Shown here piece after piece: positions 8,886 to 30,932 of a stretch of 31,357 nt of DNA; positions within the stretch are counted from its first letter, which is position 1; every line of letters begins with the position of its first letter. The stretch covers positions 1-31,357 of the IMG/VR virus record IMGVR_UViG_3300010354_000348; one strand, written 5' to 3'. A program made the position numbers and the translations under genes. Origin of the DNA: a virus. The notes beneath the pieces were generated by a model. It saw nothing but the letters and a program-made list of their open reading frames with translations. It was not told where the DNA came from and did no database searches.

Positions 8886-8980
8886 TCCGCTCCCTATGGC
8901 ATGGCAACCCACGCCTCCAAGGGGACGAGCCCACGTCGGGAGCGGGGTCACATGGACACGTTGCTAACGTCATTCTACAC

Positions 8981-9021
8981 GAGAACCCCCACACTCCGAG
9001 GGGTGGAATGTGGGGGTTCTC
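8981..9021 (-). terminator. Strong hairpin, probable terminator of the leader-A cassette
   Basis: Perfect 13-bp inverted repeat GAGAACCCCCACA (8981-8993) / TGTGGGGGTTCTC (9009-9021), with a 15-nt loop that can add three inner pairs. There is no long T tract, as is often the case in GC-rich actinobacterial terminators. It follows the stop at 9063 and separates the accessory cassette from the tail genes. The symmetric stem could work on either strand. Confidence 0.8.
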
Positions 9022-9062: not shown

Positions 9063-9668
9063 CTAGCGATTGCGCTCCCGCCATGCGAGCACGCCGCGCC
9101 GAACGCTGTAGGCGTCGGGCAGGGCGCACATTCCGAGGAGGGCTTCGTGCCCGATGCTGCTGTTTGAGCGGTAGCCAATGACGGGCAGCCACTCCCCTTC
9201 GTGAAGGACCTCACAGTAGGAGGCGTCCACGTAGAACCGCTCGTTGCCGGTCTGGATTCCGAGGCGATACCAGCGGCCCTGACGGTCGCTCTTGTAGCGG
9301 TCGAGGCCCTGCCAGAACACCCGGCCTTCCTTGCCCTTGTGCTTGCGGCCTTCCACGACGCGGACGGTTGCGCCCTTGTTAGCGGCGCGGGCGTTGTAGC
9401 GGTCGAGTTCCTGCCGGATGGATTCCCGGTCGGCAGCCTGAGCCGCTTCGTAGCGGTCGAGAACCTCGTCCGTCGCGTTCAGTGGGGCGGTCAGGGGCCA
9501 CGGGCACGGGAACCGTGTGGTGGCGTATTCGATCCACGTGAACTTGCCGGGGACGGTTTCCACGAGGGCGCTGAAGTCGCTGTCGTGGTAGCCGTTGCGC
9601 TCGCGCATGGCGAGGATGCGGCCTTCGTACTCCACGAGCGGGCTCACGGCTTCCGTTGTGGCGGTCAT
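9063..9668 (-). CDS. Hypothetical protein with KOW-like segment
   Basis: 201 residues; last gene of the cassette led by leader A. The N-terminus contains NGYHDSDFSALVE, a phrase I associate with unassigned actinobacteriophage proteins. The middle (about 65-95) is helical and charged. Residues about 98-155 (GATVRVVEGRKHKGKEGRV, then ...RFYVDASYCEVL) resemble a KOW-type small barrel, as found in NusG and ribosomal proteins that bind RNA or protein. The C-terminal 45 residues are unassigned. The start overlaps the upstream stop by 4 nt (ATGA). An RNA-contacting role is only a possibility. Confidence 0.65.
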   Translation of the reverse strand: MTATTEAVSPLVEYEGRILAMRERNGYHDSDFSALVETVPGKFTWIEYATTRFPCPWPLTAPLNATDEVLDRYEAAQAADRESIRQELDRYNARAANKGATVRVVEGRKHKGKEGRVFWQGLDRYKSDRQGRWYRLGIQTGNERFYVDASYCEVLHEGEWLPVIGYRSNSSIGHEALLGMCALPDAYSVRRGVLAWRERNR

Positions 9669-9850
9669 GCCGACACCTCCAGCGTCTTAAAGGAGCGGCC
9701 CTCGTCGGACGGGTGCCAGTCCCGAACCACGTAGTAGATGCCGTCCTGCTTAATGACCCGATGGTTCATGGGCTCTGCTTCGGCGTACCACGCGCATTCG
9801 CGCTCTGCCGACGCCTTGGTCTTGCGGGTGGTGATGATGGTGGTCTTCAT
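9665..9850 (-). CDS. Hypothetical protein (61 aa), first gene after leader A
   Basis: Begins MKTTIITTRKTKASAERECAW and ends KTLEVSA. A small basic N-terminus is followed by an alternating hydrophobic segment (NHRVIKQDGIYYVVRDW), suggesting a compact beta hairpin fold. GAGAGGGGAGCGCC directly precedes ATG 9850. It overlaps the next gene by 4 nt. Family not recognised. Confidence 0.65.
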   Translation of the reverse strand: MKTTIITTRKTKASAERECAWYAEAEPMNHRVIKQDGIYYVVRDWHPSDEGRSFKTLEVSA

Positions 9851-9925
9851 GGCGCTCCCCTCTCTTGGCTAGGCCCCTCGCCTTGCCGATGCCATAACTG
9901 TAGCACTACGGGGGAGGCGCGTCAA
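9851..9925 (-). promoter_or_regulatory. Leader module A: promoter, 5' hairpin and ribosome site
   Basis: Minus-strand -35 TTGACG (9925-9920), 17-nt spacer with CCTCCCCCGTAGTGC, -10 TACAGT (9902-9897). A hairpin follows 9 nt later: arms GGCAAGGC and GCCTAGCC (9887-9867, one mismatch) around loop GAGGG. AGAGGGGAG then leads to ATG 9850. A GTTACC box (9939-9934) lies 8 nt upstream of the -35, at the same spacing as the first repeat in leader F. One of seven related copies in the window. Confidence 0.8.
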
Positions 9926-9946
9926 GTCTATTTGGTAACGATTGAG

Positions 9947-10573
9947 TCACAGACCCGCGCACCCGATAACGCCCGTCGGGTCATAGAACTGACAGTAGTC
10001 CCGGCAAAACTTCTTCGGCTTCTCCGGCCTAGGCGCATCCCCCATTCCCCGGATCTCCTGCAGCCACTCCAGAGCCGCAAGAGCCTTCGCCTCCGAGTAC
10101 GGCTCCACGTGAGTCACAATGTCCCGGCTTGTGCCGTCCTTCGGAATCGCCACGATGCACACGTCCCGAACCTCATACTTTGTGGACATGAGCCACCCGT
10201 AAACCTGCACCTGATTCACGTACTGATCGGACGGAAAGTAGCCGAGCCCGGACATCTTCGTCGTCTTCCAGTCGATCACCATTCCGCGCTCCACGTCGAA
10301 ACAGTCCACGTGCCCGGTCATCCCATCGCGGGTAACGGCGGTTTCGAGGAGGAACCGCTTGTCCGACTTCAGCCGGGATTCGATCCACGTATGGGTTGCC
10401 GTGCCGATGCTTGCGGCGAGCCGCTCCGTGCCCGGATTCGTGGTCGGCGTCCCCTGAATCCGGTGCCAGACCTTCCGGCGGCAGCCCCCGAGTTCGCTAG
10501 GTCCTATCTCACGTTGCCTGTCGCGGCGCGTGCGGGCCCGAAACAGTAGGTCGCGCACCTCGTCAGGGGTCAC
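9947..10573 (-). CDS. Cas4-like PD-(D/E)XK exonuclease with Fe-S cysteines
   Basis: 208 residues. Features in order: PSELGGCRRKVWHR with Cys31; GTATH (57-61); GHVDCF with Asp90; VIDWKTTK giving the D-x-K catalytic pair (Asp101, Lys103); NQVQVYGW (Q motif); and a C-terminal FCRDYCQFYDPTGVIGC with Cys190, Cys194 and Cys205. One early and three late cysteines holding a 4Fe-4S cluster around a RecB-like nuclease core define Cas4-type exonucleases, which act on single-stranded DNA ends. Actinobacteriophages often carry one for recombination or repair. There is no CRISPR context here. The start is GTG 10573, overlapping the stop of the zinc ribbon gene (GTGA). Confidence 0.88.
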   Translation of the reverse strand: MTPDEVRDLLFRARTRRDRQREIGPSELGGCRRKVWHRIQGTPTTNPGTERLAASIGTATHTWIESRLKSDKRFLLETAVTRDGMTGHVDCFDVERGMVIDWKTTKMSGLGYFPSDQYVNQVQVYGWLMSTKYEVRDVCIVAIPKDGTSRDIVTHVEPYSEAKALAALEWLQEIRGMGDAPRPEKPKKFCRDYCQFYDPTGVIGCAGL

Positions 10574-10692
10574 CGGATTAGGGCCTCTCCGTGGCTCTCA
10601 GGGGCAAGGAGGACGGCGGAGCAGCAGAGGCAGCGGCCTTCCTCTACGTTGCCGTGCTCTCCTTCGCGGCACCGCAGGCAGGTTCCCGGCAT
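10570..10692 (-). CDS. Mini zinc-ribbon-like protein (40 aa)
   Basis: A short gene in the cassette led by leader B. ATG 10692 follows AGGAGGGGTC, a strong ribosome site, and the stop overlaps the GTG of the Cas4-like nuclease by 4 nt. The product has CLRC at 5-8 and CLCC at 21-24, spaced as in a small zinc knuckle. I know of no named family for it. Coupling to the nuclease gene is seen; a shared function is inferred. Confidence 0.65.
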   Translation of the reverse strand: MPGTCLRCREGEHGNVEEGRCLCCSAVLLAPESHGEALIR

Positions 10693-10700
10693 GACCCCTC

Positions 10701-10961
10701 CTAGAGATTCCGGTAGTTACGGATATGCCTCTTAATCTTGTTCACCGCAGGGCAGTCATAGGTGTCGAACTCCAGCCGGGTGTCGTCCGCGAGATAGCCC
10801 ATTTTGCAGAGCCGGTCTATGAACTCCTCCCAGTCGATTGCCTCATCGCTGTCGAACCACCCGTCGTAGACCTCTTCGGCAAGGCCGAGCATTTCGTCGG
10901 TTATGTCTGCCGCGTCATGCGGTTCGACGTAGGTCACGCCGTTATGGACGTAGGTCTTCAT
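10701..10961 (-). CDS. Hypothetical acidic protein (86 aa)
   Basis: Begins MKTYVHNGVTYVEPHDAADI. The middle is strongly acidic (EEVYDGWFDSDEAIDWEEF) and the end basic (NKIKRHIRNYRNL). It reads as a small alpha/beta protein of unknown family. I chose ATG 10961 because it overlaps the preceding stop by 4 nt (ATGA); a longer reading to 11114 overlaps the upstream gene and has an unlike, arginine- and proline-rich extension. Confidence 0.7.
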   Translation of the reverse strand: MKTYVHNGVTYVEPHDAADITDEMLGLAEEVYDGWFDSDEAIDWEEFIDRLCKMGYLADDTRLEFDTYDCPAVNKIKRHIRNYRNL

Positions 10962-11131
10962 CGGATCACCACCATGGGCTCGACAGGGGCCTTCGGCCCG
11001 TGGACCTTGTGGAATGGGACCCATTGCCCGCCGATCAGGTAGGCGGTTAGGGAGACGGCCTCGACAGTGCCGAGGTCGGTTGCTGTGCCGGAGCGCAGCG
11101 GGTAGTTGTCCCACGTGTGGGTGGTGGTCAT
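10958..11131 (-). CDS. Hypothetical protein (57 aa), first gene after leader B
   Basis: Begins MTTTHTWDNYPLRSG and continues TVEAVSLTAYLIGGQWVPFHK, probably a few beta strands. ATG 11131 is preceded by AAGGGGGCCCC, the ribosome-site end of leader B, which makes the longer reading from 11215 (running through the promoter) untenable. The stop overlaps the next ATG by 4 nt. Function unknown. Confidence 0.65.
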   Translation of the reverse strand: MTTTHTWDNYPLRSGTATDLGTVEAVSLTAYLIGGQWVPFHKVHGPKAPVEPMVVIR

Positions 11132-11209
11132 GGGGCCCCCTTCGGGGTCGGGTCCGTCCCTCGCGGACCGTGCAGACACAACGTTAGCGCCACTATCCCG
11201 TCGTGTCAA
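11132..11209 (-). promoter_or_regulatory. Leader module B: promoter, 5' hairpin and ribosome site
   Basis: -35 TTGACA (11209-11204), 17-nt spacer, -10 TAACGT (11186-11181). Perfect 6-bp hairpin GGTCCG/CGGACC (11169-11151) with loop CGAGGGA. AAGGGGG lies before ATG 11131. This is the only copy whose spacer lacks the CCCCCGT box. An A6CT5 tract (11220-11231) just upstream could act as an UP element. Confidence 0.75.
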
Positions 11210-11229
11210 GCCCATTTAGAAAAAACTTT

Positions 11230-11778
11230 TTAAGTCACTCCGCCCGAGTTAATCCCCTCAGTCACGAGGTCATACTGAGAAGGCTCATCCTCTGACCAAC
11301 CGAGGTTCATGTGACAGTTCGTGGACTGATTGCTCGTGTTGTAGAACGTCATGCCGTAACTTGTCTCGTTACGAAGAATATGCACCTTTATGGACGAGAT
11401 CGTCCCTCCAGCCTTCGTGCCAGACGGGAGAAACTCGGACGCGATCGAAACGCCCCCACTGATTCCCGAAGCGGCTGATAGGACGCTTACCGCAGAATCC
11501 GGGTACTGCCGATTCAGGTTCCTTGGGATGATTGGGGTGCCAAACTTCGTGTAGGTGGGGCCCTCGATCAGACTGGCTTTAATGGTCCCCGCGTCGCTCG
11601 TGATGTCATAGAACTCAAACTGAACACTCTTACCATTCGTCTCCAGCACGAACGAAACAGACGAAGTGGCGGGAATAGTGAAGAACTCCGACATGAGATA
11701 AACCAGTCCCCGCTTCGCGAGGTCACTGCCTTCAGTGGACAGTTCAGCGTAAGCACGCTTCTGCCAGTAGTTCGCCAT
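11230..11778 (-). CDS. Probable phage structural protein (182 aa)
   Basis: Begins MANYWQKRAYAELSTEGSDLAKRG. The remainder is beta-rich with few charges: FFTIPATSSVSFVLETNGKSVQFEFYDITSDAG and KASLIEGPTYTKFGTPII, ending in a polar segment rich in Asn, Ser and Gly. The composition is that of phage head or tail decoration proteins rather than enzymes. It follows the glycosyltransferase and methyltransferase and could be their target, but that is conjecture. The stop (TAA 11232-11230) lies within an A/T tract immediately before leader B. Family not recognised with certainty. Confidence 0.55.
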   Translation of the reverse strand: MANYWQKRAYAELSTEGSDLAKRGLVYLMSEFFTIPATSSVSFVLETNGKSVQFEFYDITSDAGTIKASLIEGPTYTKFGTPIIPRNLNRQYPDSAVSVLSAASGISGGVSIASEFLPSGTKAGGTISSIKVHILRNETSYGMTFYNTSNQSTNCHMNLGWSEDEPSQYDLVTEGINSGGVT

Positions 11779-11787
11779 ACCCCCATT

Positions 11788-12387
11788 CTAAGTGATGACG
11801 CGCCGCACTCCAGCCGCGATTAACTCCTCGTCGGGGATCACGTCACAGAAGTTGCCGACGAGGATTTCCAGATATGGCATGACGCGGGGGTTCCGCTTCT
11901 CCACGACGGCGATATGTGGGAACACGGTAACGTGCATGATCTCCTCCCCCGGCAGCCACGAATCCCGATCCTCCGCGACATCCCTTACAAGAGTCACGAC
12001 CTGTTCCACGTCGTACCCCTCGAAAAACATTCGGCCCCCTAGAGTGAGAAAAGGCCATAGGTGCGGGGTCATCGTGCCCGTCGAATCGACAATCAGGTCG
12101 AACCACTCATGCCGAAACTCGCCCCGAACCCATCCATCGTCCGTCACATCCCCAATGCGCACATCTAGCCCTAGCGTCGCGCACGCCGGATTCACGTCTA
12201 CCCCGACGATCTCAGACCCCTCCGGCAGGACCGACTTCCACACTTCCATCGCCCCACCGTTCTCGACCCCGGCGATCAGCAAACGGACAGGCTCCTTAGG
12301 CAGGCTCCGATCGAACGCATGTACGACCACTTCGTAATGACGAGAACCGAGGCCCGCATGAGTCAGCCAAGCATCGCGGTATCCCAT
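11788..12387 (-). CDS. Class I SAM-dependent methyltransferase-like protein
   Basis: 199 residues. VRLLIAGVENGGAMEVW (motif I, glycine-rich loop), EIVGVDVNP (motif II, acidic residue that binds the ribose), LDVRIGDVTD (motif III) and FDLIVDSTG with a following LTLGGRMFFEGY make a Rossmann methyltransferase fold. The phrase GVENGGAMEVWKSVLPEGSEIVGVD resembles the CmcI/macrocin O-methyltransferase group, which act on sugars and small molecules. The gene overlaps the glycosyltransferase by 25 nt, so a sugar substrate is plausible. A DNA substrate is less likely because no NPPY-type motif is present. Confidence 0.7.
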   Translation of the reverse strand: MGYRDAWLTHAGLGSRHYEVVVHAFDRSLPKEPVRLLIAGVENGGAMEVWKSVLPEGSEIVGVDVNPACATLGLDVRIGDVTDDGWVRGEFRHEWFDLIVDSTGTMTPHLWPFLTLGGRMFFEGYDVEQVVTLVRDVAEDRDSWLPGEEIMHVTVFPHIAVVEKRNPRVMPYLEILVGNFCDVIPDEELIAAGVRRVIT

Positions 12388-13415
12388 TCGGGCCCCCTCA
12401 CGTCCATACTGAACTGGCTTATAACGATGTCGCGCTGACGTGCAGCCTCCGCACGTCGAATGTCCGGGTCGAGGAGTTCAGTCGCGTGGTCCCGCCACTC
12501 GTCCGGCGTTTCGGCGAGCCTCCCTACCCCAGCCTCATGCAACAGCCGGTATTCCTCCGTGGGCGTCGCGATAAACGGGATACCCGCAGCCGCATACTCC
12601 AGCCCCTTCAAATACGACTTTGCCTCGTTAAACGGGGTCCGGGTCAGCGGCACGAGCCCTACATGGAACTGTGAGAGCAGATTCGGGTAGAGGGCTATCG
12701 GATGCATCACTGTCGTTTGGACGCGCTGTAGGCCCGCTCTGACCCCGAAATGGTGCGGATCTCCGGGGATATGGCCCGAATGGTGGATCGTGATTCCGTG
12801 ATCCTTCGAGAAGGCGGGTAACCACTCCCGTAGTAACTCGATGTCTCCTGATCTCCACCATGTCCCGCCGACCCATCCGACTTTAGGGACCTCAGGCTGT
12901 TCGATAGGGGAGTAACGCTCCACATCTAGCGCATTACGAATCACCCTGACATCGCGGCACCGTCTGGCATAGAAGTCGCCGAGGAACGCGGTCGATACGG
13001 TCACGGTGTCAGCGACTCGAATCCCGATCTCGTAATAGGCGCGATTGTTCTCCGGGTTCGTGTGCGGATTTGTCGAGTGAAAGGCGACATTTTCTTCGTG
13101 GAGCCCGTAGTGGAAATCGTCAATATCGACAATGATCCGTTCTCCACGTGCCTGCATCTTCCGAAACATATCTGGCACGATTTGGTGCATCATCAGTTTA
13201 AAGACGCTTACGTCCCAATGGATTAACATGCCGTCTTCATGCAGTACGCCGATTCCCACCTCCGGGGCAACAGCGGGCATCCCAACGGATACTTCCCACC
13301 CGCGTTTGTGGATCTCGCGGGCAGGGAGAACGCATCTGTAGTACGCGCAGCCATTAGGTTGCGGAGGGTCGCTCTTTTGGTCGAAATCACCCGTTATGAA
13401 GGCCACGCTGGGCAC
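12363..13415 (-). CDS. Glycosyltransferase, GT4-like (GT-B fold)
   Basis: 350 residues from GTG 13415, chosen because GGAGG lies 6 nt upstream; an ATG at 13448 would add 11 residues. The N-terminal Rossmann half starts VAFITGDFD. The linker region has the GT4 phrase VIRNALDVERYSP. The second half carries GWVGG and FNEAKSYLKGLEYAAAGIPFIATPTEEYR, the GT4 nucleotide-sugar signature with the Lys and two Glu positions. Likely role: transfer of a sugar onto a virion protein, the host envelope or modified DNA. The position between head-tail genes and tail genes favours a virion or envelope target. It overlaps genes on both sides by 25-29 nt. Confidence 0.85.
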   Translation of the reverse strand: MPSVAFITGDFDQKSDPPQPNGCAYYRCVLPAREIHKRGWEVSVGMPAVAPEVGIGVLHEDGMLIHWDVSVFKLMMHQIVPDMFRKMQARGERIIVDIDDFHYGLHEENVAFHSTNPHTNPENNRAYYEIGIRVADTVTVSTAFLGDFYARRCRDVRVIRNALDVERYSPIEQPEVPKVGWVGGTWWRSGDIELLREWLPAFSKDHGITIHHSGHIPGDPHHFGVRAGLQRVQTTVMHPIALYPNLLSQFHVGLVPLTRTPFNEAKSYLKGLEYAAAGIPFIATPTEEYRLLHEAGVGRLAETPDEWRDHATELLDPDIRRAEAARQRDIVISQFSMDVRGPEWDTAMLG

Positions 13416-13689
13416 GCTCCACCTCCACCATATGAAGGGTGAGCGCATAACCGAGGATGTCCACTACGGTGTCAGGCTTCGGCTTGTGGACTTGCCTCGC
13501 GATCTTCATGCCGATCATGCAGAGGCTTACCTGTTCGGCGGTGACTGGACTGTCAAGGATGACTGACCAAATGCGGGCGGCGCGGTCAAGATTATCGAGG
13601 GGGTGACCGTATTCGTCTTGCCGGTCACCGGAGACGAGTCGGGCGGCGTAAGCGGCAATGTCCTCTGGTTGCATGTTCAGATATCCCAC
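13387..13689 (-). CDS. DUF6378-like protein (100 aa)
   Basis: From GTG 13689, behind GAGGGGAGACAC. The core reads AARLVSGDRQDEYGHPLDNLDRAARIW, then MIGMKIARQVHKPKPDTVVDILGYA. This GDR--YG-P--N---A-IW ... M--KIAR----PK-D--VD--GYA pattern is a conserved domain (DUF6378 type) found in many phages. It is alpha-helical, with conserved Asp, His and Lys residues suggestive of nucleotide binding, reminiscent of all-alpha NTP pyrophosphohydrolases; that link is from pattern only. It overlaps the glycosyltransferase by 29 nt. Confidence 0.75.
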   Translation of the reverse strand: MGYLNMQPEDIAAYAARLVSGDRQDEYGHPLDNLDRAARIWSVILDSPVTAEQVSLCMIGMKIARQVHKPKPDTVVDILGYALTLHMVEVERAQRGLHNG

Positions 13690-13699
13690 GTGTCTCCCC

Positions 13700-14863
13700 T
13701 CAGAGAATCGCGATGTCCGTTGCTCGCTGGCCTTCAGCCATGACGAAAGTGAGCATACCCGGCTCACTCTGTTCTCCAGTGGATACGCGCCAGTATTCGG
13801 AGCCACCGTCCATTGCGGGTGCCTGCATCCATAGGCAGGAGCCCCAATCGGCTACCCGAAAATGGTGATAATGCCCGGTTACCAGAATATCCGCGTCGCC
13901 GATCGGTTGCCGACCGGCAGCCTGCTTCTCCCACCACTGCCGGAGTTTCTGCTCCGCGTTTGCTCCTGAGCGGGTGACGTGCCCGTGAGTGATCCCGAGA
14001 ATCCATCCGGCGGACGGGATAGTCACGGTCAGATTGTCGCGGGCGATCACGAAACGGACGTGCCCGTAGGCGGCAGGATTCGCGGCGAGGATCTCCGAGA
14101 CCTGTTCCACAATGGCGAGATCCTCATTGTCGTGGACTCCGGTGAACGCCTTCCCCGTGCTCCGATTCTCTCCATGATTGCCGCCGACGGCAGCGACGGT
14201 GACCGATTCGAAGAGGGGGGCCCACTTCTGGAGGGAGTCAGCGAGAAGCCGACGGGTCACCTTTACCTGATCTCGGCGGTCCAGTTCGACGGAGAATGTC
14301 TGTGACGGGTAGTGGCCCATGCAGCCTTCGACGGAATCACCAACCCACAGGACGTTCAGTGAGGACACTTCTCGCCCGATCTTCCTAAGGTCGCGGACGC
14401 GGTGGATAACAGCGTCACGGGCTTCCACGATCCTTCGAATCGTGCCGTCCAGCCCGTCTCCGTCGCTCTTCCCAATCTGCCAGTCCCCGAGGACCACGTT
14501 CAGGGTCGCGGTCCCTGTCCACGTCTGCTTCTTAGGCTTGTGCCTGAGGGCGTCTTTAATGAGGTCTTCGTAGTCGGCGGGGGAGTGAACGCGGCGAACG
14601 ACTCGCGCTTTCCACTGCCGATTCAGGAGCCCGTCGGCTCCGCCCCACGAGTTAAAGAGGACCGGCTCAACAATCTGGTACAGGTTCGGGTCGAGGTCCC
14701 ACGCTTTCAGGATCTCTTCCCAACGGGGGTCGCCGTGTACGGCGTCTGTGGTGATCGTGCCTTCCGACCCGAGCCATTCGACTCCCGGCGACCACTTACG
14801 CTTCCGCGCAGTCAGTTCATCGGATGCTTGAATGGCCTTCAGGAACTCATCTCGAAGGCTCAT
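13700..14863 (-). CDS. Calcineurin-like metallophosphoesterase
   Basis: 387 residues. The metallophosphoesterase motifs appear in order: LGDWQIGK (125-132; Gln where the common GDxHxG has His), VGDSVEG (174-180), GGNHGE (227-232), GITHGH (291-296) and GHYHH (330-334). The first 110 residues are a helical N-terminal region with EWLGSEGTIT and PRWEEILKAWDLDPN. Proteins of this layout are frequent in actinobacteriophages as phosphoesterases or putative nucleases; the substrate is not known. ATG 14863 lies next to the Com-like gene stop, so the two are likely co-translated. Confidence 0.85.
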   Translation of the reverse strand: MSLRDEFLKAIQASDELTARKRKWSPGVEWLGSEGTITTDAVHGDPRWEEILKAWDLDPNLYQIVEPVLFNSWGGADGLLNRQWKARVVRRVHSPADYEDLIKDALRHKPKKQTWTGTATLNVVLGDWQIGKSDGDGLDGTIRRIVEARDAVIHRVRDLRKIGREVSSLNVLWVGDSVEGCMGHYPSQTFSVELDRRDQVKVTRRLLADSLQKWAPLFESVTVAAVGGNHGENRSTGKAFTGVHDNEDLAIVEQVSEILAANPAAYGHVRFVIARDNLTVTIPSAGWILGITHGHVTRSGANAEQKLRQWWEKQAAGRQPIGDADILVTGHYHHFRVADWGSCLWMQAPAMDGGSEYWRVSTGEQSEPGMLTFVMAEGQRATDIAIL

Positions 14864-14864
14864 G

Positions 14865-15002
14865 TCACTCCTGCTGATTCGCTGCCTTGCATCGGGTACA
14901 GGTGATCCGCCACGGGGCGGTTACCAGTTCGGCGAGGAGTTTGTTGCATCGCCAGCATCGGGGGCGTTCAACAGTTTTCTCTCCTCGCCCATAAGCATCC
15001 AT
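14865..15002 (-). CDS. Com-like zinc ribbon, putative translational regulator
   Basis: 45 residues. The core CWRCNKLLAEL...ITCTRCKAAN (Cys16, Cys19, Cys35, Cys38) follows the Mu Com family pattern C--CNKLL-------I-C-RC---N. In Mu, Com is an RNA-binding protein that opens a structure in the mom mRNA so that Mom can be translated. ATG 15002 overlaps the stop of the upstream tail-terminator gene (TAATG), and the stop ends one base before the metallophosphoesterase ATG. I see no mom-like gene in the window, so the target here is unknown. The alternative is a generic zinc ribbon. Confidence 0.75.
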   Translation of the reverse strand: MDAYGRGEKTVERPRCWRCNKLLAELVTAPWRITCTRCKAANQQE

Positions 15003-15394
15003 TATCGCTCCTGCACCACCTGTAACGATAGCGTGAAGCGGGGGCGGTCATTCTCGTCCGTCCCGAGCGCGTTAATTGAGGAAATCTGATTCACCCTTAG
15101 GAAGCGGACGCCGGAGATTGTCTCGTCAGTGATTCCGGTCAGGCTGTCCCGAACGTCAGCGATGAGATCCCGCGCCGTCGGGTAGTCGTTCCTGCCAGCC
15201 CGGACAAGGACCTGAACCGATGGGCGTTCGAGTGTCGCGGCATTGTTCCGCATGACCTCTAGCGGGGCGGCACCCGCGTATTCATAGAGAGCAACGCACG
15301 TATCCGGGGTAGCGGGCATGATCCCAATGAACAGGTTCGTTCCAGTAACGGCGACTGAGGCGCTGTTTAACTTGTCGGCGAGAGCCTCCAGCAT
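15002..15394 (-). CDS. Tail terminator / minor capsid protein
   Basis: 130 residues, the last of four connector genes. It begins MLEALADKLNSASVAVTGTNLF. The core VALYEYAGAAPLEVM...RPSVQVLVRAGRNDYPTARDLIADVRDSLTG is the pattern of phage minor capsid / tail terminator proteins (an alpha/beta fold that caps the tail tube and meets the head). The alternating strand at the end (RPRFTLSLQVVQE) fits. Start ATG 15394 overlaps the preceding stop by one base. Confidence 0.8.
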   Translation of the reverse strand: MLEALADKLNSASVAVTGTNLFIGIMPATPDTCVALYEYAGAAPLEVMRNNAATLERPSVQVLVRAGRNDYPTARDLIADVRDSLTGITDETISGVRFLRVNQISSINALGTDENDRPRFTLSLQVVQER

Positions 15395-15786
15395 TACAGC
15401 CTCCTCAGGTAGGTTATGAATTGCTCCGCGACTGCCCGGAAGAACTTGTCCTCAGCGGCCTTCACGGGGATCTCTAGGTACTTGTACGTCTTGCCGGGGC
15501 CATGTTGCGCGTCGGGGTCCTCGTGGACGATGCCCGCGTAAGGCGCTGCAGGGCCACCGTAACCGATTGTGACCTCGATCCCGTTCGGGGTGATGACGGG
15601 CATCTCGACACGGCCCGAGGTCTTCAGGGCTCCCGTGTCCACGGGTACGATCTTCTTCGACTCGTTCATGATTCTCTGAGCCTCTGCCCGCATGGTATCC
15701 GCGTAGATACGCTTCTGGTCATCGCTCGCCTTCGCAAGCAGCGACTGCATCCGTTCGAGGCCGACGATCTGCATTTCGATCTTCAC
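15394..15786 (-). CDS. HK97 gp10-like head-tail joining protein
   Basis: 130 residues. An N-terminal helix (GLERMQSLLAKASDDQKRIYADTMRAEAQRIMNESKKIVPVDTGAL) ends in the signature VPVDTGALKTSG, followed by beta strands with GYGGPAAPYAGIVHE. Both elements are diagnostic of the HK97 gp10 family, which takes part in joining tail to head. Third of the connector genes, overlapping the head-closure gene by 4 nt. Confidence 0.88.
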   Translation of the reverse strand: MKIEMQIVGLERMQSLLAKASDDQKRIYADTMRAEAQRIMNESKKIVPVDTGALKTSGRVEMPVITPNGIEVTIGYGGPAAPYAGIVHEDPDAQHGPGKTYKYLEIPVKAAEDKFFRAVAEQFITYLRRL

Positions 15787-16112
15787 TTGCCGACCCTCAC
15801 AACAGTGTGATGCCAGCCGTTCTGATCGTGCGGCGTATCCACTCCGAGGATGACCGGGGAAGCGCCGTCCGCGAGCACAATCAGATAATCAGTGGTTACG
15901 GTGACCTCACCGTACAAATACACCTTGCCGGTCTCCACCACGTCTCGCCCATCGGGGGTACGGGTAAGGATCGTTTCGGCGACGAGATGAGCGGGGACAG
16001 ACACGCTTGCCGAAGCGGTATTCGTGCGCCGACCGTACTTATCTGTGGACGCGGGAGGGTAGAGCGTCACCGTTTCCGAAAACAACTCCCTGTAGGCCGA
16101 TTCGATTGCCAT
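15783..16112 (-). CDS. Head closure (stopper) protein
   Basis: 109 residues. ELFSETVTLYPPASTDKYGRRT, a central AHLVAETILTRTPDGRD and the final VDTPHDQNGWHHTVVRVGK give the small beta-barrel pattern of siphovirus head-closure proteins (SPP1 gp16 / Phage_H_T_join type). They seal the portal channel and dock the tail. Its position after the adaptor and before gp10 is standard. Confidence 0.8.
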   Translation of the reverse strand: MAIESAYRELFSETVTLYPPASTDKYGRRTNTASASVSVPAHLVAETILTRTPDGRDVVETGKVYLYGEVTVTTDYLIVLADGASPVILGVDTPHDQNGWHHTVVRVGK

Positions 16113-16113
16113 G

Positions 16114-16530
16114 TCAGGTCTTGTTATCCATCTGCCCGACCACGAAGTCGGTGCCTTCGCCTTCCACGATCCCCTCGTCCGTGGGCAGGATCGCGTTCGC
16201 GTTCACGACAGGAGCGGCAGGGAAACGCCTAAATCGCTCCGTATCGAGGCTTTTCTTCAGAGACTCCCATTGCGCTAGGCGGGCTCCAGCACGCCGGGAC
16301 AGGGAAAGGTCTCCGACGGATTTCGTCTCCTCTACGGCCCGTGCAGCCTTCGCAATGAGGGCAATCACGGCGGCGATAGCGGCGGCGTAAGCGTCCCCGG
16401 CGTATGAGGTAATGAGGTAGTCGAGTTCCTCGTTAGAAAGCAGTTGATCGTTCGTGTCTGTGTCCTGAATCAGGAACCGCACTTCGTCACGGGTGCTGCT
16501 TGCCGGGTTACCCGAATAGGTCCATGTCAT
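16114..16530 (-). CDS. Head-tail adaptor protein
   Basis: 138 residues. STRDEVRFLIQDTDTNDQLLSNEELDYLI is the usual opening of head-tail adaptor proteins (gp6/gp15 type; DEVRFLIGDTD--D-LLSDEEI). Helices rich in alanine follow (YAAAIAAVIALIAKAARAVEE). It binds the portal ring to start the connector. First gene after the hairpin that follows the capsid gene. Confidence 0.85.
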   Translation of the reverse strand: MTWTYSGNPASSTRDEVRFLIQDTDTNDQLLSNEELDYLITSYAGDAYAAAIAAVIALIAKAARAVEETKSVGDLSLSRRAGARLAQWESLKKSLDTERFRRFPAAPVVNANAILPTDEGIVEGEGTDFVVGQMDNKT

Positions 16531-16560
16531 TGCCGCCTCCTGAGGAAAGTCTACCTGTTA

Positions 16561-16604
16561 CGCGAGCGGGGCCCGCCCCTTGTGAGAGCGAGCCCCGCAA
16601 CGCG
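16561..16604 (-). terminator. Hairpin after the major capsid gene
   Basis: Stem GCGGGGC (16566-16572) / GCCCCGC (16592-16598), extendable by CGCG/CGCG (16561-16564 with 16601-16604) over a small bulge. It begins 10 bases past the capsid stop. A leaky terminator or 3' mRNA stabiliser here would raise capsid relative to connector genes, an arrangement common in phages. There is no clear T tract. Confidence 0.7.
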
Positions 16605-16613
16605 GTGGTGGTA

Positions 16614-17591
16614 CTAGGCGACGATGCTCGTCCAGAAGTACCCGAGATCCGAAGCCACGACCTTGTTATCGAAAGCCAACTCGCTCTCGATACGGGTCGC
16701 CTTCAGGGACTCCAGCCGGAAGGAGGAGGTGCCGATCGTTGCACCGAGCCCACCCGAAACGCCGGTCCACTGGAAGGTGTAACCAGCCGACGGGGTGAGA
16801 AGGCCGGGGGCGTCAGCGACGTGGCAGAGCAGCGCCGTCTTGCCCGTGGTGAACGAGTAAGCGCCGGTCGCGCCCTCGTTGTTCGTGGCCTTCACGCTCT
16901 TCGAAACGAGCACGCGCTCAATGTCGAACATGCGGGCGAGCATGTCGGCGGTGATCGTCTGCGAAGAGGTGTACTTGATGCGATCGACGAGATCCGGGTG
17001 GTTCTTCAACTGGCGGAACACGTCGTAACCGAGGACGAGGGTGTTAGCCTCGAAGCCGGTGGTGGAGAGGATCGACGCCTTGCCAGCCTCGATATCCTCG
17101 ATCGGGTCCGAGTTGGTGTAGTCGTTCCACTGAACCGTCTGGTTCGTGGACGGCGACGCCGAAACGCCCGTGATGTCCTTGCTCCAGACGCTCGTGGTCA
17201 TGAAGTCGTTCATGAACTGGATCTCGCGGCGCATGAGGAGACGGTGAGTGACGAACTCAGCGGCCTCACGGTCCACGTTGATCGGGGCGTCAGCGTTAGC
17301 GCGGGTCTGATCGCCAACGTCCTTGTGGATCGCGAACACGTCCGCGTAGTACGTGGCGGTCGAGATGTTATAGCCGGAACCGACCGACTCGGTGCCGTCG
17401 GCGCGAACCTGCGCCTCGTCGCGGAGCCAATCGTTCTTGTCATACGTGAAGTACTTGTCCGACTGCTTATCCACCGGGACGACAGGGAACACCTTGTCGG
17501 CGATGAAGTTCTCCGCCTTCTGCATGTAGGCGACGGAGATGTTCGTCAGGATTGCGTCAACATGCACCTGAGACTGAGTGGGCTGTGGCAT
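16614..17591 (-). CDS. Major capsid protein
   Basis: 325 residues. VDAILTNISVAYMQKAENFIADKVFPVVPVDKQSDKYF is a motif common at the start of a large group of HK97-fold capsid proteins (ADKVFP-VPV-KQSDKY). Also seen are YYADVFAIHKDVGDQTR, the long spine-helix region MRREIQFMNDFMTT, TLVLGYDVFRQLKNHPDLVDRIKY, and a C-terminal RLESLKATRIESELAFDNKVVASDLGYFW. It follows scaffold and decoration genes and precedes the connector set. The N-terminus shows no obvious long delta domain, consistent with a separate scaffold. Confidence 0.93.
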   Translation of the reverse strand: MPQPTQSQVHVDAILTNISVAYMQKAENFIADKVFPVVPVDKQSDKYFTYDKNDWLRDEAQVRADGTESVGSGYNISTATYYADVFAIHKDVGDQTRANADAPINVDREAAEFVTHRLLMRREIQFMNDFMTTSVWSKDITGVSASPSTNQTVQWNDYTNSDPIEDIEAGKASILSTTGFEANTLVLGYDVFRQLKNHPDLVDRIKYTSSQTITADMLARMFDIERVLVSKSVKATNNEGATGAYSFTTGKTALLCHVADAPGLLTPSAGYTFQWTGVSGGLGATIGTSSFRLESLKATRIESELAFDNKVVASDLGYFWTSIVA

Positions 17592-17604
17592 TAGTCATTC
17601 TCCT

Positions 17605-18003
17605 TTACAGGCCACGGGCGCTGTTAGCGCAGTCGATGACGGCAGTGGTGATTGCGCCGGAAGCGGCGGGCTCGATGAACGTGCCAACCGAGTACGCGGC
17701 AGAGGCGGTCGTGCCGAACGCGAGGGTCACGGCAGTGGCCGAAGCCGAGGCGAAGCACGCCTGACCAGCCGAAGCCGAGCCACCGGCCTTGATCTTGGTG
17801 CCACCAACGATGGTGACCTCAGCGATCTGGCCCGAGGTGGGAGCGTTCTGAAGGACACCGATCGGGCGGTCAGTTGCGCCGCTCACGGCGACAAGATCGC
17901 CGGTCCCGTTGTCGATCTTCACGAAGTGGTACTGCTTCGCAGACAGATTCTCGCCCGCAGTGAACGAGGCCTTGACTGCTGAATTGGAGAAATCGTAAGC
18001 CAT
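17605..18003 (-). CDS. Head decoration protein
   Basis: 132 residues, beta-rich and low in charge, beginning MAYDFSNSAVKASFTAGENL. The segments VAVSGATDRPIGVLQNAPTSG and GGTKIKAGGSASAGQ follow the pattern of DUF2190 and related capsid decoration proteins (D-RPIGVLQNAP--GQ-AEV). It lies between scaffold and capsid genes, as usual. It is expected to trimerise on the capsid exterior and stabilise it. Confidence 0.82.
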   Translation of the reverse strand: MAYDFSNSAVKASFTAGENLSAKQYHFVKIDNGTGDLVAVSGATDRPIGVLQNAPTSGQIAEVTIVGGTKIKAGGSASAGQACFASASATAVTLAFGTTASAAYSVGTFIEPAASGAITTAVIDCANSARGL

Positions 18004-18006
18004 GTC

Positions 18007-18828
18007 TCAGGCTCCCTTCTCGATCAGGTAGTCGTTGTAGAGGGCAGGATTGCTTACGGCGATCTGAGCCATTGCCTGCTCCATCGTTGCCGCCGAGCCC
18101 TCGCTAACTGCCTGCTTCGCGAGGGAAGTCATCTTGTCGAACGCGCCACCCTGCGGGGTGAAGCCCTTGCCGACCTCAGTGAAGATGTCAGCGGACTCGT
18201 TCTGCGCGTCAGCCGAAACGAGGGCATCCTCGACCGACTTAGCCAACTCAGAGTCGATACCGGCGAGACGGCGCAACGCGGGGCCGATCTTCTCCGGGTC
18301 GAGAGTGAGGTGCTTAAAGGTCTCGCGGGCCTTAGCGATTGCCTCAGCGTCCGCACGATCCTCCCGCTCCTTAGCGAGGGCGTTCTCCGCGTCAGCCTTA
18401 GCCTTCGCAAGATCCTCCATCGCCTTACGAATGGGCTCCGGGGCAGACTTCGCGAGGGCAACGAGGTCGTCAGCGGCCTCCATCATGTCCCCGGCTTCCG
18501 GCTCCGGCTCCTCCATCGCGGCTTCGAGTTCAGCGATACGCGCTTCGAGTTCGACGATTCGGGCCTGCGCGGTGGCAAGGTCCTCCTCGACGCCCTTAAC
18601 CTCAGTCTCAGGCATGTCCTCAGCGAGCATCACTTCCTGATCCACGGTTGCCGTGGCATCGTCCATGCTTGCCTCCATTGGTTCCGGCAGCGTCCTCAGA
18701 ACATCTGCCACGGTCGTTACGTCGGCGGTCTTAACCACGAGCCACCCTTCATGAAGATGGGCAGGATGATCCACCCCACTCGTCTCCTCAATAAGGAGAT
18801 TCGTCATCTTCGGGGCTTTACGTGGCAC
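18007..18828 (-). CDS. Scaffold-like capsid assembly protein
   Basis: 273 residues from GTG 18828, which has AGGAGG five bases upstream; an in-frame GTG at 18834 lies inside that ribosome site. The N-terminus has SGVDHPAHLHEGWLVVKTAD, a phrase often found at the start of phage capsid assembly proteins. Residues 80-180 are strongly acidic coiled coil (DLATAQARIVELEARIAELEAAMEE, EREDRADAEAIAKARE). The C-terminal part is helical and ends YNDYLIEKGA. Together with its position before decoration and capsid genes this indicates an internal scaffold. No serine-histidine protease motif is seen; that function is likely in the 662-residue gene. Confidence 0.75.
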   Translation of the reverse strand: MPRKAPKMTNLLIEETSGVDHPAHLHEGWLVVKTADVTTVADVLRTLPEPMEASMDDATATVDQEVMLAEDMPETEVKGVEEDLATAQARIVELEARIAELEAAMEEPEPEAGDMMEAADDLVALAKSAPEPIRKAMEDLAKAKADAENALAKEREDRADAEAIAKARETFKHLTLDPEKIGPALRRLAGIDSELAKSVEDALVSADAQNESADIFTEVGKGFTPQGGAFDKMTSLAKQAVSEGSAATMEQAMAQIAVSNPALYNDYLIEKGA

Positions 18829-18888
18829 GAGCACCTCCTACGTCAATGACAATCATACACGTTCTCCGAGCCCCCTAGGAATGGGCGA

Positions 18889-18917
18889 CCCCCTGCCTCA
18901 GGGGATAAGACAGGGGG
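18889..18917 (-). terminator. Hairpin closing the leader-C cassette
   Basis: Stem CCCCCTG (18889-18895) / CAGGGGG (18911-18917) with a 15-nt loop. A second, tighter hairpin CCCCTG/CAGGGG (18890-18895 with 18899-18904, 3-nt loop) uses the same left arm, so the two are mutually exclusive. The hairpin lies between the stop at 18944 and the scaffold start at 18828. Confidence 0.65.
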
Positions 18918-18943
18918 CCGCTTCGCCAACTGTAGAGGGGGAT

Positions 18944-19069
18944 CTAGTTGGCCTCCAGATCCTCCGCCCAAATAGCGCGGAGGACGTTGATGAATCGGCG
19001 TCGGCCTTCAGCGAGATCCGGGGAAAGCGTGAGCGTGATTGCGTACAGTTCGTCCAGTTTATGGCTCAC
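18944..19069 (-). CDS. Small hypothetical protein (41 aa)
   Basis: Starts at GTG 19069, overlapping the stop of the membrane protein gene (GTGA) with AAGGAGG just upstream. The product, beginning MSHKLDELYAITLTL, is mostly helical with a basic patch (EGRRRFINVLRAIW). Last gene before the hairpin at 18889. Family not recognised; support comes from ribosome site and overlap. Confidence 0.55.
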   Translation of the reverse strand: MSHKLDELYAITLTLSPDLAEGRRRFINVLRAIWAEDLEAN

Positions 19070-19206
19070 TGCATTCCTCCTTCGATCCACCCGGCGACGC
19101 CCCATAGGGCGATGAGCCCGACGACGATTCCGATTGCGCGGGCGTAGGCGAGTGCCGCAATCACTTTCCAGCCGCGTTCCGTGTATCGCAGGTTCTGGTT
19201 AGACAT
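19066..19206 (-). CDS. Small single-span membrane protein (46 aa)
   Basis: From ATG 19206. After a basic N-terminus (MSNQNLRYTERGWK) there is a hydrophobic stretch of about 25 residues (VIAALAYARAIGIVVGLIAL), then WGVAGWIEGGMQ. Probably an inner-membrane peptide. It overlaps the upstream gene by 8 nt and the downstream gene by 4 nt. Possible roles such as superinfection exclusion or lysis timing cannot be distinguished from the sequence. Confidence 0.6.
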   Translation of the reverse strand: MSNQNLRYTERGWKVIAALAYARAIGIVVGLIALWGVAGWIEGGMQ

Positions 19207-19435
19207 GAGTCCCCTCGCTTTCTGCCGGTTCCCACGGCATCTCGAATATGACGTACCTGAATCGCTCGTTCATGAGGCCCTCCGAGATCGTCACGTTTAT
19301 CGTGCCGTGTTGCTGCCGGAGGCGCTGCAGGAGGTTCGTGAAGTGCTCCCCTGCCTGCCAGTCTTCGTCGTCCATGTACCTGAAGTAGGTGTCGCCGTTC
19401 TCGCGGACCATCCCGAATCCGATGTCGAGACTCAT
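19199..19435 (-). CDS. Hypothetical protein (78 aa)
   Basis: Begins MSLDIGFGMVRENGDTYFRY and ends PAESEGTHV. It contains DDEDWQAGEHFTNLLQRLRQQHGTINVTISEG, an amphipathic helix then a strand. Small soluble alpha/beta protein of unknown family, second gene of the leader-C cassette, 11 bases after the preceding stop, with GGAAGG before ATG 19435. Confidence 0.65.
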   Translation of the reverse strand: MSLDIGFGMVRENGDTYFRYMDDEDWQAGEHFTNLLQRLRQQHGTINVTISEGLMNERFRYVIFEMPWEPAESEGTHV

Positions 19436-19446
19436 GGCAGTCCTTC

Positions 19447-19890
19447 CTAGAAGGAGGGGTCGCGGTAGTCGCGGGCGTAGCCGACGACGAGGCTTGACCA
19501 GTAGGCCACCTTGCCGTCACACCGCTCGTTGTAGCGGATCTCTCCGGCGCTCTTGCAGGAGTGGCAGAACCGGCTTGGCTCACTGTGGTAGTGGCATGGG
19601 CCGATCACGCGAGGGAGGAATCGGTCGTGCTCTTCCTGCATGATGGGCTCTTGCCCGATCCACCCCATGATTCGGGTATGGGGCTTAGCGATCCACTCGC
19701 CGTTCTCGCCCTCCTCTGCGTTCACGGTGGTGATCGCCTTAATCTGGCCCTTGCGGGCTCCGCTCTTAAACCGCTCGACGCCTGACACGATGACGGCGTA
19801 GGAGTCGCTTCCGACGTAGTGGGTTGCGACCATGCCGGGAGTGATCTCGTTCGCCTCTGCGATCGTGAGGCCGGTGTCCGTGACGATCAT
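19447..19890 (-). CDS. Hypothetical protein (147 aa) with Cys pair, first gene after leader C
   Basis: Begins MIVTDTGLTIAEANEITPGMVAT. The first 60 residues look like a small beta domain (VIVSGVERFKSGARKGQIKAITTV). The second half has FCHSCKSAGEIRYNERC, a possible zinc site, and ends in a tyrosine-rich tail (VVGYARDYRDPSF). ATG 19890 is preceded by AGAGGGGAACGAA, the end of leader C. Function unknown. Confidence 0.65.
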   Translation of the reverse strand: MIVTDTGLTIAEANEITPGMVATHYVGSDSYAVIVSGVERFKSGARKGQIKAITTVNAEEGENGEWIAKPHTRIMGWIGQEPIMQEEHDRFLPRVIGPCHYHSEPSRFCHSCKSAGEIRYNERCDGKVAYWSSLVVGYARDYRDPSF

Positions 19891-19962
19891 TTCGTTCCCC
19901 TCTGGCAGAGTCCCTCGCTCTGCCTACCCCCTAACTATGACACCACGGGGGCGGGATGTCAA
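19891..19962 (-). promoter_or_regulatory. Leader module C: promoter, 5' hairpin and ribosome site
   Basis: -35 TTGACA (19962-19957), 17-nt spacer with CCCCCGTGGTGT, -10 CATAGT (19939-19934). Perfect 7-bp hairpin GGCAGAG/CTCTGCC (19924-19904) with loop CGAGGGA, then AGAGGGGAA before ATG 19890. Upstream of the -35, the GAATAGAC sequence is shared with leader D. Confidence 0.82.
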
Positions 19963-19982
19963 GTCTATTCGGAAGAAAGTTT

Positions 19983-20177
19983 CTACTCCTCCACGAAGAG
20001 AGTTCCGCGTGTCGTCGTGGAGGCAGTGCGATCCGCCGCAAACTCGACCGGGGCACTGTTCTTCCCGAGCCGCACCGTCACGTTGTCCTGATCCGTCACT
20101 GACTCCACCACGACATGACGAATCCGATCCCCATACAGGGCCTTAACCGTGGTGCCCACTCGAATCGTCTTGCTCAT
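19983..20177 (-). CDS. Small beta-barrel-like protein (64 aa)
   Basis: Begins MSKTIRVGTTVKALYGDRIRHVVVESV and continues DNVTVRLGKNSAPVEFAADR. Alternating hydrophobic residues suggest a five-stranded SH3-like barrel. It starts with an ATGA overlap on the stop of the prohead protease gene and ends just upstream of leader C. Family not recognised. Confidence 0.6.
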   Translation of the reverse strand: MSKTIRVGTTVKALYGDRIRHVVVESVTDQDNVTVRLGKNSAPVEFAADRTASTTTRGTLFVEE

Positions 20178-24958: not shown

Positions 24959-25213
24959 TCAGAACAGGGTAGGTTTCACTGCCTGCCCGTTATGCCACAC
25001 CCTACCTGAACAGACTCCATCATAGAAGGAGCGACGCGGGCGAATCCAGTCCTCGCACTCCTTCGTGACCGGGCAGCGCCGACAGTAGGCAAGGGCTTGT
25101 TCTGCGTCCTCCAGAGTGAACGCATCGAAAAGACGAGGGTCGGCTCCGTAGCAAGCAGCCTTGTCCATATTCCTCCGAGGAGTGAACGCGATCACTTCCC
25201 GTTTATAGTCCAC
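24959..25213 (-). CDS. WhiB-family Fe-S protein (divergent)
   Basis: 84 residues from GTG 25213. Four cysteines lie in WhiB spacing: Cys21 in KAACYGADPRLF, then Cys44 and Cys47 in YCRRCPVTKEC, and Cys53. After these, the usual GVWGG turn is replaced by GVCSGRVW, with an extra Cys68. WhiB proteins bind a 4Fe-4S cluster and act with the host principal sigma factor to activate or repress promoters. It overlaps the preceding gene by 11 nt. The altered turn may change sigma binding. Confidence 0.88.
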   Translation of the reverse strand: MDYKREVIAFTPRRNMDKAACYGADPRLFDAFTLEDAEQALAYCRRCPVTKECEDWIRPRRSFYDGVCSGRVWHNGQAVKPTLF

Positions 25214-25394: not shown

Positions 25395-25626
25395 CGGCGT
25401 CCTCTTCCGCATAGCAGAGGGCGTCGTTAGCGTTCTCGATTAGCCCGTCGATTCTCCAGTACGGCATTCCTGTTCGGGCATACCCGGAGAGGACAGGGGC
25501 CCCGTCCGCGTCTATGAACTCGGCAATCACAATCCAGCCGGTGAGCAACATGCCGTCGCCCTCGTTAGCCCGCTCTAGGGCAGCAAGGGCCGACTCCAGC
25601 GCCCGTTCCGCGTCTTCTCTGTCCAT
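25378..25626 (-). CDS. Conserved small actinophage protein (82 aa)
   Basis: Begins MDREDAERALESALAALERANEGDGMLLTG. An alanine-rich N-terminal helix is followed by LTGWIVIAEFIDADG, a strand pair, and a C-terminal acidic helix (NDALCYAEEDADEELD). The layout helix - LTGWVV-AE - helix is common in small actinobacteriophage proteins, none with known function. Overlaps the following gene by 17 nt. Confidence 0.65.
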   Translation of the reverse strand: MDREDAERALESALAALERANEGDGMLLTGWIVIAEFIDADGAPVLSGYARTGMPYWRIDGLIENANDALCYAEEDADEELD

Positions 25627-26448: not shown

Positions 26449-26676
26449 CTAGGCTACCCGACGCGCTCTCATCTTGCGTCGCTCCCTCTCTGTCATCCCG
26501 CCCCAAACCCCATATGCCATGCCTTCGTCTAGGGCGTAACTGAGGCATTCGAGGCGCACGTCACATCGGGAACAGGTGCGTTTCGCTTGGCCTGAGTCGG
26601 AGCCTTTTTCGGGGAAGAAGATCTCTCCTCCCACTTGTGCACAGAGGGCGTCGTTCATCCACTTGTACGGTTCCAT
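26449..26676 (-). CDS. WhiB-family Fe-S transcription factor
   Basis: 75 residues, a complete small WhiB: Cys12 in DALCAQVGGEIFFPEKGSD, Cys35 and Cys38 in TCSRCDVRLEC, Cys44, then GVWGGMTERERRKMRARR, the sigma-contacting turn followed by the basic DNA-binding tail. By family knowledge it binds a 4Fe-4S cluster and the sigma factor region 4 and redirects host or phage promoters. Second of two WhiB genes in the same transcription unit. Confidence 0.95.
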   Translation of the reverse strand: MEPYKWMNDALCAQVGGEIFFPEKGSDSGQAKRTCSRCDVRLECLSYALDEGMAYGVWGGMTERERRKMRARRVA

Positions 26677-28276: not shown

Positions 28277-28352
28277 GACCTCTTGCCCCTCTCTGTGTGG
28301 GGCCCCTCGCCCCTCACCCCCTAATCATGACATGACGGGGGAGGCATGTCAA
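28277..28352 (-). promoter_or_regulatory. Leader module D: promoter, 5' hairpin and ribosome site
   Basis: -35 TTGACA (28352-28347), 17-nt spacer with CCTCCCCCGTCATGT, -10 CATGAT (28329-28324). Hairpin GTGAGGGGC/GCCCCACAC with one A-A mismatch around loop GAGGG (arms from about 28294 to 28316), then AGAGAGGGG. The -35 overlaps the last codons of the upstream unit (stop at 28355), so there is no room for a terminator between them. Confidence 0.82.
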
Positions 28353-29449: not shown

Positions 29450-29521
29450 CTTGCTCCCCTCCGGCGGGGCCCCTCGCCCTGCCGACCTCCTAAGCATGGC
29501 ATGACGGGGGAGTCGTGTCAA
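29450..29521 (-). promoter_or_regulatory. Leader module E: promoter, 5' hairpin and ribosome site
   Basis: -35 TTGACA (29521-29516), 17-nt spacer with ACTCCCCCGTCATGC, -10 CATGCT (29498-29493). Hairpin GGCAGGGC/GCCCCGCC (29483-29463, one A-C mismatch) around loop GAGGG, then GGAGGGGAG before ATG 29449. It has the most elaborate upstream region of the seven copies (see repeats at 29532-29611). Confidence 0.82.
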
Positions 29522-29931: not shown

Positions 29932-30003
29932 GGTGTTTCCCCTCTTTCGTGGTGGGCCCCTCGCCCACATTCCAACTATAGCACCACGGGGGGGTCGAGT
30001 CAA
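29932..30003 (-). promoter_or_regulatory. Leader module F: promoter, 5' hairpin and ribosome site
   Basis: -35 TTGACT (30003-29998), 17-nt spacer with CCCCCCCGTGGTGC, -10 TATAGT (29980-29975), the best -10 of the set. Perfect 6-bp hairpin GTGGGC/GCCCAC (29968-29952), loop GAGGG, starting six bases after the -10, i.e. at about the expected transcription start. AGAGGGGAA leads to ATG 29931. Confidence 0.85.
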
Positions 30004-30861: not shown

Positions 30862-30932
30862 TTCTCCCTCTCTGTCGGAGCCCCTCGCTCCGTACCCCTG
30901 AAGTGTAGCATGACGGGGGAGTGGCCTGTCAA
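30862..30932 (-). promoter_or_regulatory. Leader module G: promoter, 5' hairpin and ribosome site
   Basis: -35 TTGACA (30932-30927), spacer of 19 nt (others 17) with ACTCCCCCGTCATGC, -10 TACACT (30907-30902). Perfect 6-bp hairpin CGGAGC/GCTCCG (30892-30876), loop GAGGG, then AGAGAGGGAG. The longer spacer suggests a weaker or activator-dependent promoter. Confidence 0.78.

Follow-up and report, generated by a model that had tools for sequence, protein, structure and literature searches.

The window analysed here is the whole of IMG/VR record IMGVR_UViG_3300010354_000348, 31,357 nucleotides (nt) of phage DNA in whose positions all coordinates are given. Its minus strand holds the virion-cluster genes and both accessory regions, together with seven copies of one leader, the −35 elements of which lie at 30932, 30003, 29521, 28352, 19962, 11209 and 9925. 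The first four are in the right-hand accessory region, which the original prediction on this DNA had named as carrying the leader, and the last three head cassettes of small genes inside the virion cluster. The account we favour, and hold to be reasonably probable, is that these cassettes are resident, phage-specific expression slots of an accessory and probably early regulon, within which genes are exchanged. It draws on comparison with relatives, in which the cassettes sit at operon boundaries, their contents turn over, the leader is kept over gene swaps (three pairs), one gene occurs under unrelated leaders, leaders resemble each other within a genome, and a variable hairpin stem carries a conserved loop.

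Every leader consists, in order, of a sigma-70-type TTGAC promoter, a hairpin in the 5' untranslated region (UTR), a Shine-Dalgarno (SD) site and an ATG. The −35 and −10 elements are separated by 17 nt in six leaders and by 19 in that at 30932, and the hairpin lies 6–11 nt below the −10. The stems vary across the window around a constant loop, CGAGGGR (CGAGGGG in five copies, CGAGGGA in two); the loops of relatives' leaders read CGAGGGG, TGAGGG or CAAGGGG. Hairpins combining an SD-like loop with a promoter were found seven times on the coding strand and not once on the other, against a mean of 0.04 (maximum 1) in 100 dinucleotide shuffles. Four leaders fold clearly better than their shuffles, and those at 30003 and 9925 weakly better. 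A covariance model, R1, scored every window leader at 20.4 bits or more, split leaders from most other matches, and recovered four leaders outside its training set (G004 at 25613 and 36760, L119 at 2495, G010 at 1167), each followed by an SD and an ATG. Leaders of one genome are on average about 66–70% identical, and identity is higher within genomes (0.676) than between them (0.621), a difference equalled in none of 5000 label shuffles.

An Rfam scan returned nothing at gathering thresholds, the exact promoter pattern had no match in IMG/VR, and a first, strict regular expression missed most of the relatives' leaders. Counted over all loci, hairpins with a GAGGG loop were in no excess over control loops, because most relatives have no leader. 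A hit of the leader model in LiSara was rejected, as it falls inside a coding gene.

The virion cluster encodes a portal, a head morphogenesis protein, a 662-amino-acid (aa) protein with a C-terminal phage protease domain, a protein in scaffold position, the major capsid protein, head-tail proteins, two major tail proteins and a tape measure, the capsid and tail assignments resting on PHROG matches. Between its protease and scaffold genes the original prediction had placed leader C with four small genes and a hairpin, and these were found within a few bases of where it put them, with a 64-aa gene between the protease protein and the cassette. Leaders B and A, with four and two genes and an end hairpin, were likewise present between head and tail genes as predicted, the stem of that hairpin having 17 bp in our fold rather than 13. 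DNA homology to relatives breaks at 18844–18859, 19983, 8980–8983 and 11227. Against relative G004 it ends at 18859 and is back at 19983; it breaks again at 8983 and 11227, and genes B4 and B2 are shared inside. The cassettes thus appear as transcription-unit-like inserts lying exactly at virion-operon boundaries, a description that these breakpoints support.

In comparisons with relatives the leader tends to remain and the genes below it tend to change. Loci L035, L040 and L041 have near-identical virion proteins and 92–97% DNA identity on both sides of the C site, and most genes inside it differ. The leaders of L035 and L040 are 92% identical, those of L040 and L041 (second leader) 89%, and those of L118 and L119 87%; in the 120 nt from the ATG identity falls to 23–34%, and the gene below is unrelated. 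In the reverse arrangement, gene A1 is shared with relative G012 from the exact start codon onward, under leaders unlike each other and between flanks of about 65–73%. The right-hand region of G012 carries a C1 homologue and an A2-like stretch side by side behind a leader at 2815, and its C site holds a homologue (41%) of gene G1. By these alignments a leader is not carried along with its gene. The original prediction that the leader marks genes moving or switched as modules was right in that contents vary between phages, but movement of leader and gene as one module is not supported, as homology stops at the start codon and A1 lies under an unrelated leader in G012.

The C site could be followed through all loci of the close clade having both flanks. 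It is empty (45–68 bp) in 16, about 985 bp long with an epimerase gene in 5, and occupied by a leader-headed set of small genes (0.7–2.5 kb) in 10 including the window; these counts include two pairs of near-copies, L005/L006 and L045/L046. The leader-occupied state requires two changes, and the epimerase state four, on a tree of virion proteins (scaffold, neighbouring head and capsid proteins), with L118 scored as occupied though a contig end cuts its C site. By this tree all members of the window's clade have the site filled and those of the sister clade have it empty or with the epimerase, and six large contigs of the latter (G001, G003, G005, G007, G008, G021) contain no leader anywhere. 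The idea that leader cassettes were inserted patchily in the window's clade was rejected, since the tree has them fixed there. Checking presence and absence at the cassette borders, which had been put forward as a test, gave a divided answer: cassette C is absent from a whole clade and its contents differ, but in the leader clade its site is always occupied, which makes it a fixed slot whose contents vary. Among those occupied relatives that were examined a stable end hairpin precedes the scaffold promoter, with T-runs in four (L035, L040, L041, L118).

At the head-tail site, gene B4 encodes a Cas4-like nuclease: it has the PD-(D/E)XK residues and four cysteines, invariant in seven homologues, and matches PADLOC Cas4 and PHROG exonuclease entries. 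It occupies the corresponding place, in the same orientation, in ten further loci (L084, L085, L086, L088, L116, L117, L118, L119, L120, L121), several of them near-copies. Another group (L091, L094, L095, L098–L100, L104, L105 and L109) has a homologue upstream of the tail genes and in the opposite orientation; L005 and L095 are pieces of one contig, in which g182 and the tail genes are by their coordinates about 21.5 kb apart. The corresponding site of G012 holds three leaders and A1, with no B4 match. Among the genomes compared B4 is thus common but not universal at this site, and its neighbours there are variable. Scans of IMG/VR returned two loci for B4 and none for G1.

On the account of resident slots, each leader would supply, in order, a host-type promoter, a hairpin close to the 5' end whose loop resembles an SD, and the real SD; the loop, which matches the SD core in two lineages, may aid ribosome loading or mRNA stability, and the hairpin as a whole could act in standby loading, in stability or in factor binding. 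Each of the two sites ends in a hairpin immediately ahead of the next virion operon's promoter, so that its contents could be transcribed and replaced without disturbing the virion genes. Promoter use, early timing and termination are inferred parts of this arrangement, and the leaders may also serve as shared homology for gene exchange. In the window the leader stands before the right-hand accessory operons and before an operon that includes a DNA-metabolism nuclease, and before none of the virion genes. Expression of the cassettes at another time than the virion genes is plausible. A bolder proposal, which we put forward tentatively, takes the leader for a phage regulatory RNA of a new kind, its SD-core loop acting as a ribosome standby site or a shared regulon switch while the element also marks slots with exchange at the start codon.

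Several observations weigh against this account or limit the evidence for it. The window's end hairpins are stable and have no U-tract, and to call them terminators goes beyond the fold. The hairpin of the leader at 11209 folds no better than its shuffles, and R1 misses several leaders of G012, which have another type of hairpin. Over 22 hairpins, 54 cells had changed on both sides and the covariation score was 0.894 against 0.203 shuffled, values inflated by the choice of relatives' hairpins partly by their stems, though the seven window leaders were not so chosen; the covariation is supportive, not independent, evidence. In 27 of 28 leaders the varying loop base is the one that the SD core has, which speaks for the account, but this agreement covers few independent lineages. 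Between L035 and L041 the break falls inside the leader, and the shared gene starts just past the hairpin, without the leader. Finally, a leaderless 57-aa gene likewise regains homology precisely at its start codon, so gene-precise exchange is not specific to leaders.

These breakpoints also bear on the idea that leaders are recombination joints first, similar repeats that shuffle downstream genes by homologous recombination and are kept alike within a genome by the same process. Between L040 and L041 the leader alone forms a shared island (86 bp, 87%) that ends at the ATG, as such joints would leave it, and the within-genome similarity fits as well; a mean identity of about 66–70% per genome is, however, little for homologous recombination, and breaks occur at leaderless starts too. 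We regard this as a possibility of limited weight, and it is compatible with resident slots rather than exclusive of them.

The original prediction had seen moron architecture, in which promoter, genes and terminator are inserted whole between virion genes and independently expressed. A putative sigma-70-type promoter is present in all three cassettes, which lie at operon boundaries, and at the C site, which one clade of relatives leaves empty, leader and end hairpin occur only together with the insert. At the head-tail site, however, the nuclease answers in part to the outcome named in advance as refuting, the same genes fixed in place in all relatives, and its conservation in place means that the operon headed by the leader at 11209 is not one. 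Promoter and gene should also move as a unit, and they do not: the leader stays while genes change in three pairs, A1 is shared without its leader, and leaders are alike within genomes. Nor does base composition differ over the cassettes. Classical morons seem an unlikely explanation. Late transcription with the head and tail genes, the leaders merely adding promoters or strong translation starts, would suit cassettes on the virion-gene strand and the sigma-70-type look, with extended −10, of the scaffold and tail promoters, but the leader's association with accessory and nuclease operons and the end hairpins that part cassettes from the next virion promoter make it improbable.

On the account of resident slots, the window offers a clear case of accessory genes turning over in fixed, bracketed slots between virion genes, and the breakpoints can be located to the single base. 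Two notions that tend to be run together, genes moving with their promoter and promoters staying while genes change, are kept apart here. The leader, with a variable stem and a constant SD-like loop, is directly testable in reporter assays.

Table 1. Leaders, cassette genes and associated elements of the window.
Feature	Position	Strand	Remarks
Leader G	30862..30932	-	right-hand region
Leader F	29932..30003	-	right-hand region
Leader E	29450..29521	-	right-hand region
Leader D	28277..28352	-	right-hand region
64-aa gene	20177-19983		between protease protein and cassette C
Leader C	19891..19962	-	promoter TTGACA-17-CATAGT; hairpin GGCAGAG-CGAGGGA-CTCTGCC; SD AGAGGGG
C1, 147 aa	19447..19890	-	Cys/His-rich C-terminus; 56% homologue in right-hand accessory region of G012
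C2, 78 aa	19199..19435	-	
C3, 46 aa	19066..19206	-	putative transmembrane micropeptide (transmembrane by eye); type LTxRG...GWxE recurs in relatives' C-site cassettes
C4, 41 aa	18944..19069	-	GTG start
Hairpin ending cassette C	18885..18921 (about)	-	16-bp stem; z −2.1; without U-tract
Scaffold-gene extended −10 element	18852..18859	-	TGTATGAT; in relatives with and without cassette
Leader B	11132..11209	-	promoter TTGACA-17-TAACGT; hairpin GGTCCG-CGAGGGA-CGGACC
B1, 57 aa	10958..11131	-	no homologue found in relatives
B2, 86 aa	10701..10961	-	67% to G004 copy at same place
B3, 40 aa	10570..10692	-	Cys-rich, possible zinc ribbon (by eye)
B4, 208 aa	9947..10573	-	Cas4-like PD-(D/E)XK nuclease; D90/D101/K103
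Leader A	9851..9925	-	promoter TTGACG-17-TACAGT; hairpin GGCAAGG-CGAGGGG-CCTAGCC
A1, 61 aa	9665..9850	-	83% DNA identity to G012 copy from exact start codon; leader not shared
A2, 201 aa	9063..9668	-	part resembles (34%) stretch of G012
Hairpin ending cassette A	8981..9021	-	17-bp stem in fold; z −5.2; without U-tract
Tail-operon extended −10 element	8972..8979	-	TGTAGAAT

Other contents of the C site in relatives include an NAD-dependent epimerase gene, patchy and without a leader, in L012, L019, L025, L026 and L141 (Pfam PF01370, checked for L025), and a NADAR-domain protein within the cassette of L041 (7784–8455). Cassettes ending in a micropeptide and a secreted-looking DUF732 protein were seen in L015 (8283–8600), L045 (8284–8598), L048 (512–886) and L049 (517–891), the domain being assigned by Pfam in the first three and by similarity in L049. 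Upstream of some leaders, in the window (29614–29550) and in G004, short words such as AATCGGGC repeat and, judged by eye, are possible operators. Two WhiB-like genes (26449–26676 and 24959–25168) could be regulators of the leaders, to which they are tied by nothing more than their presence. The 662-aa protein (20174–22162) has, besides its C-terminal phage serine protease domain, a TUDOR-type domain and regions that match the PHROGs polynucleotide kinase and RNA ligase.

The tail operon is headed by a promoter of its own and a conserved 5' UTR of about 82–90 nt (22 distinct sequences; window 8964–8883, minus strand), in which two mutually exclusive helices both need the same CCG. In 16 of 17 aligned sequences the first has at least 7 of its 9 positions paired; the second, which covers the SD, has 6–7 of its 7 paired in 13 of the 17. 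Covariation in the consensus fold is modest, a single sequence folds no better than its shuffles, and no Rfam family covers this UTR. It could be a translation switch, in which one helix would hide the SD.

As to relatives and host, a megablast of the window against isolate phages gave no match, and a capsid-protein scan of bacterial and archaeal genome contigs found no relative and no prophage. Isolates with a related capsid protein are not T4-like; the best matches, at 52–57% identity, come from Arthrobacter and Microbacterium phages and together with the two WhiB genes suggest an actinobacterial host.

Among known systems the nearest kinds are SAS/ESAS and PeSL, and we would place SAS/ESAS, of actinobacterial phages, as the closest parallel (PMC3203893, PMC7302621). 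These too are repeated elements before selected, mostly non-structural genes, with a SigA-like promoter upstream and an SD-containing motif near the start; the ESAS of Adephagia contain SigA-like promoters, their regulation being unsettled (PMC11373665). Their upstream part differs among phage groups, and the function of these elements is unsettled. SAS has a 13-bp consensus near start codons, and 17-bp imperfect inverted repeats surround the promoter. The leader is unrelated to SAS in sequence: the window has no match to the 13-bp consensus at up to two mismatches, and one chance-level match to the EF consensus, on the other strand. Here, moreover, the SD-like motif is a hairpin loop ahead of the true SD, and we came across no report in which SAS/ESAS head slots whose genes are exchanged.

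PeSL are promoter-stem-loop repeats in plastic regions of T4-like phages and are proposed mediators of gene shuffling (Arbiol 2010 and Comeau 2014, as described in PMC4503421 and PMC3950731). They join an early promoter to a stem-loop between shuffled genes; the leader too has a putative promoter and a stem-loop, and gene exchange is seen around leaders of the window type. They are described from T4-like myoviruses, to which the window phage does not belong by its capsid and tail matches; in the window the stem-loop is part of the 5' UTR and its loop resembles an SD, and the leader stays while genes change. The cassettes resemble the morons of lambdoid and other temperate phages in having a putative promoter of their own and an end hairpin between late genes, and in being absent from some relatives, which holds for the C site (45–68 bp when empty) and not for the nuclease operon at 11209. 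They differ in that the leader of the window is common to a whole regulon and not tied to a gene, and one of its sites keeps a conserved nuclease.

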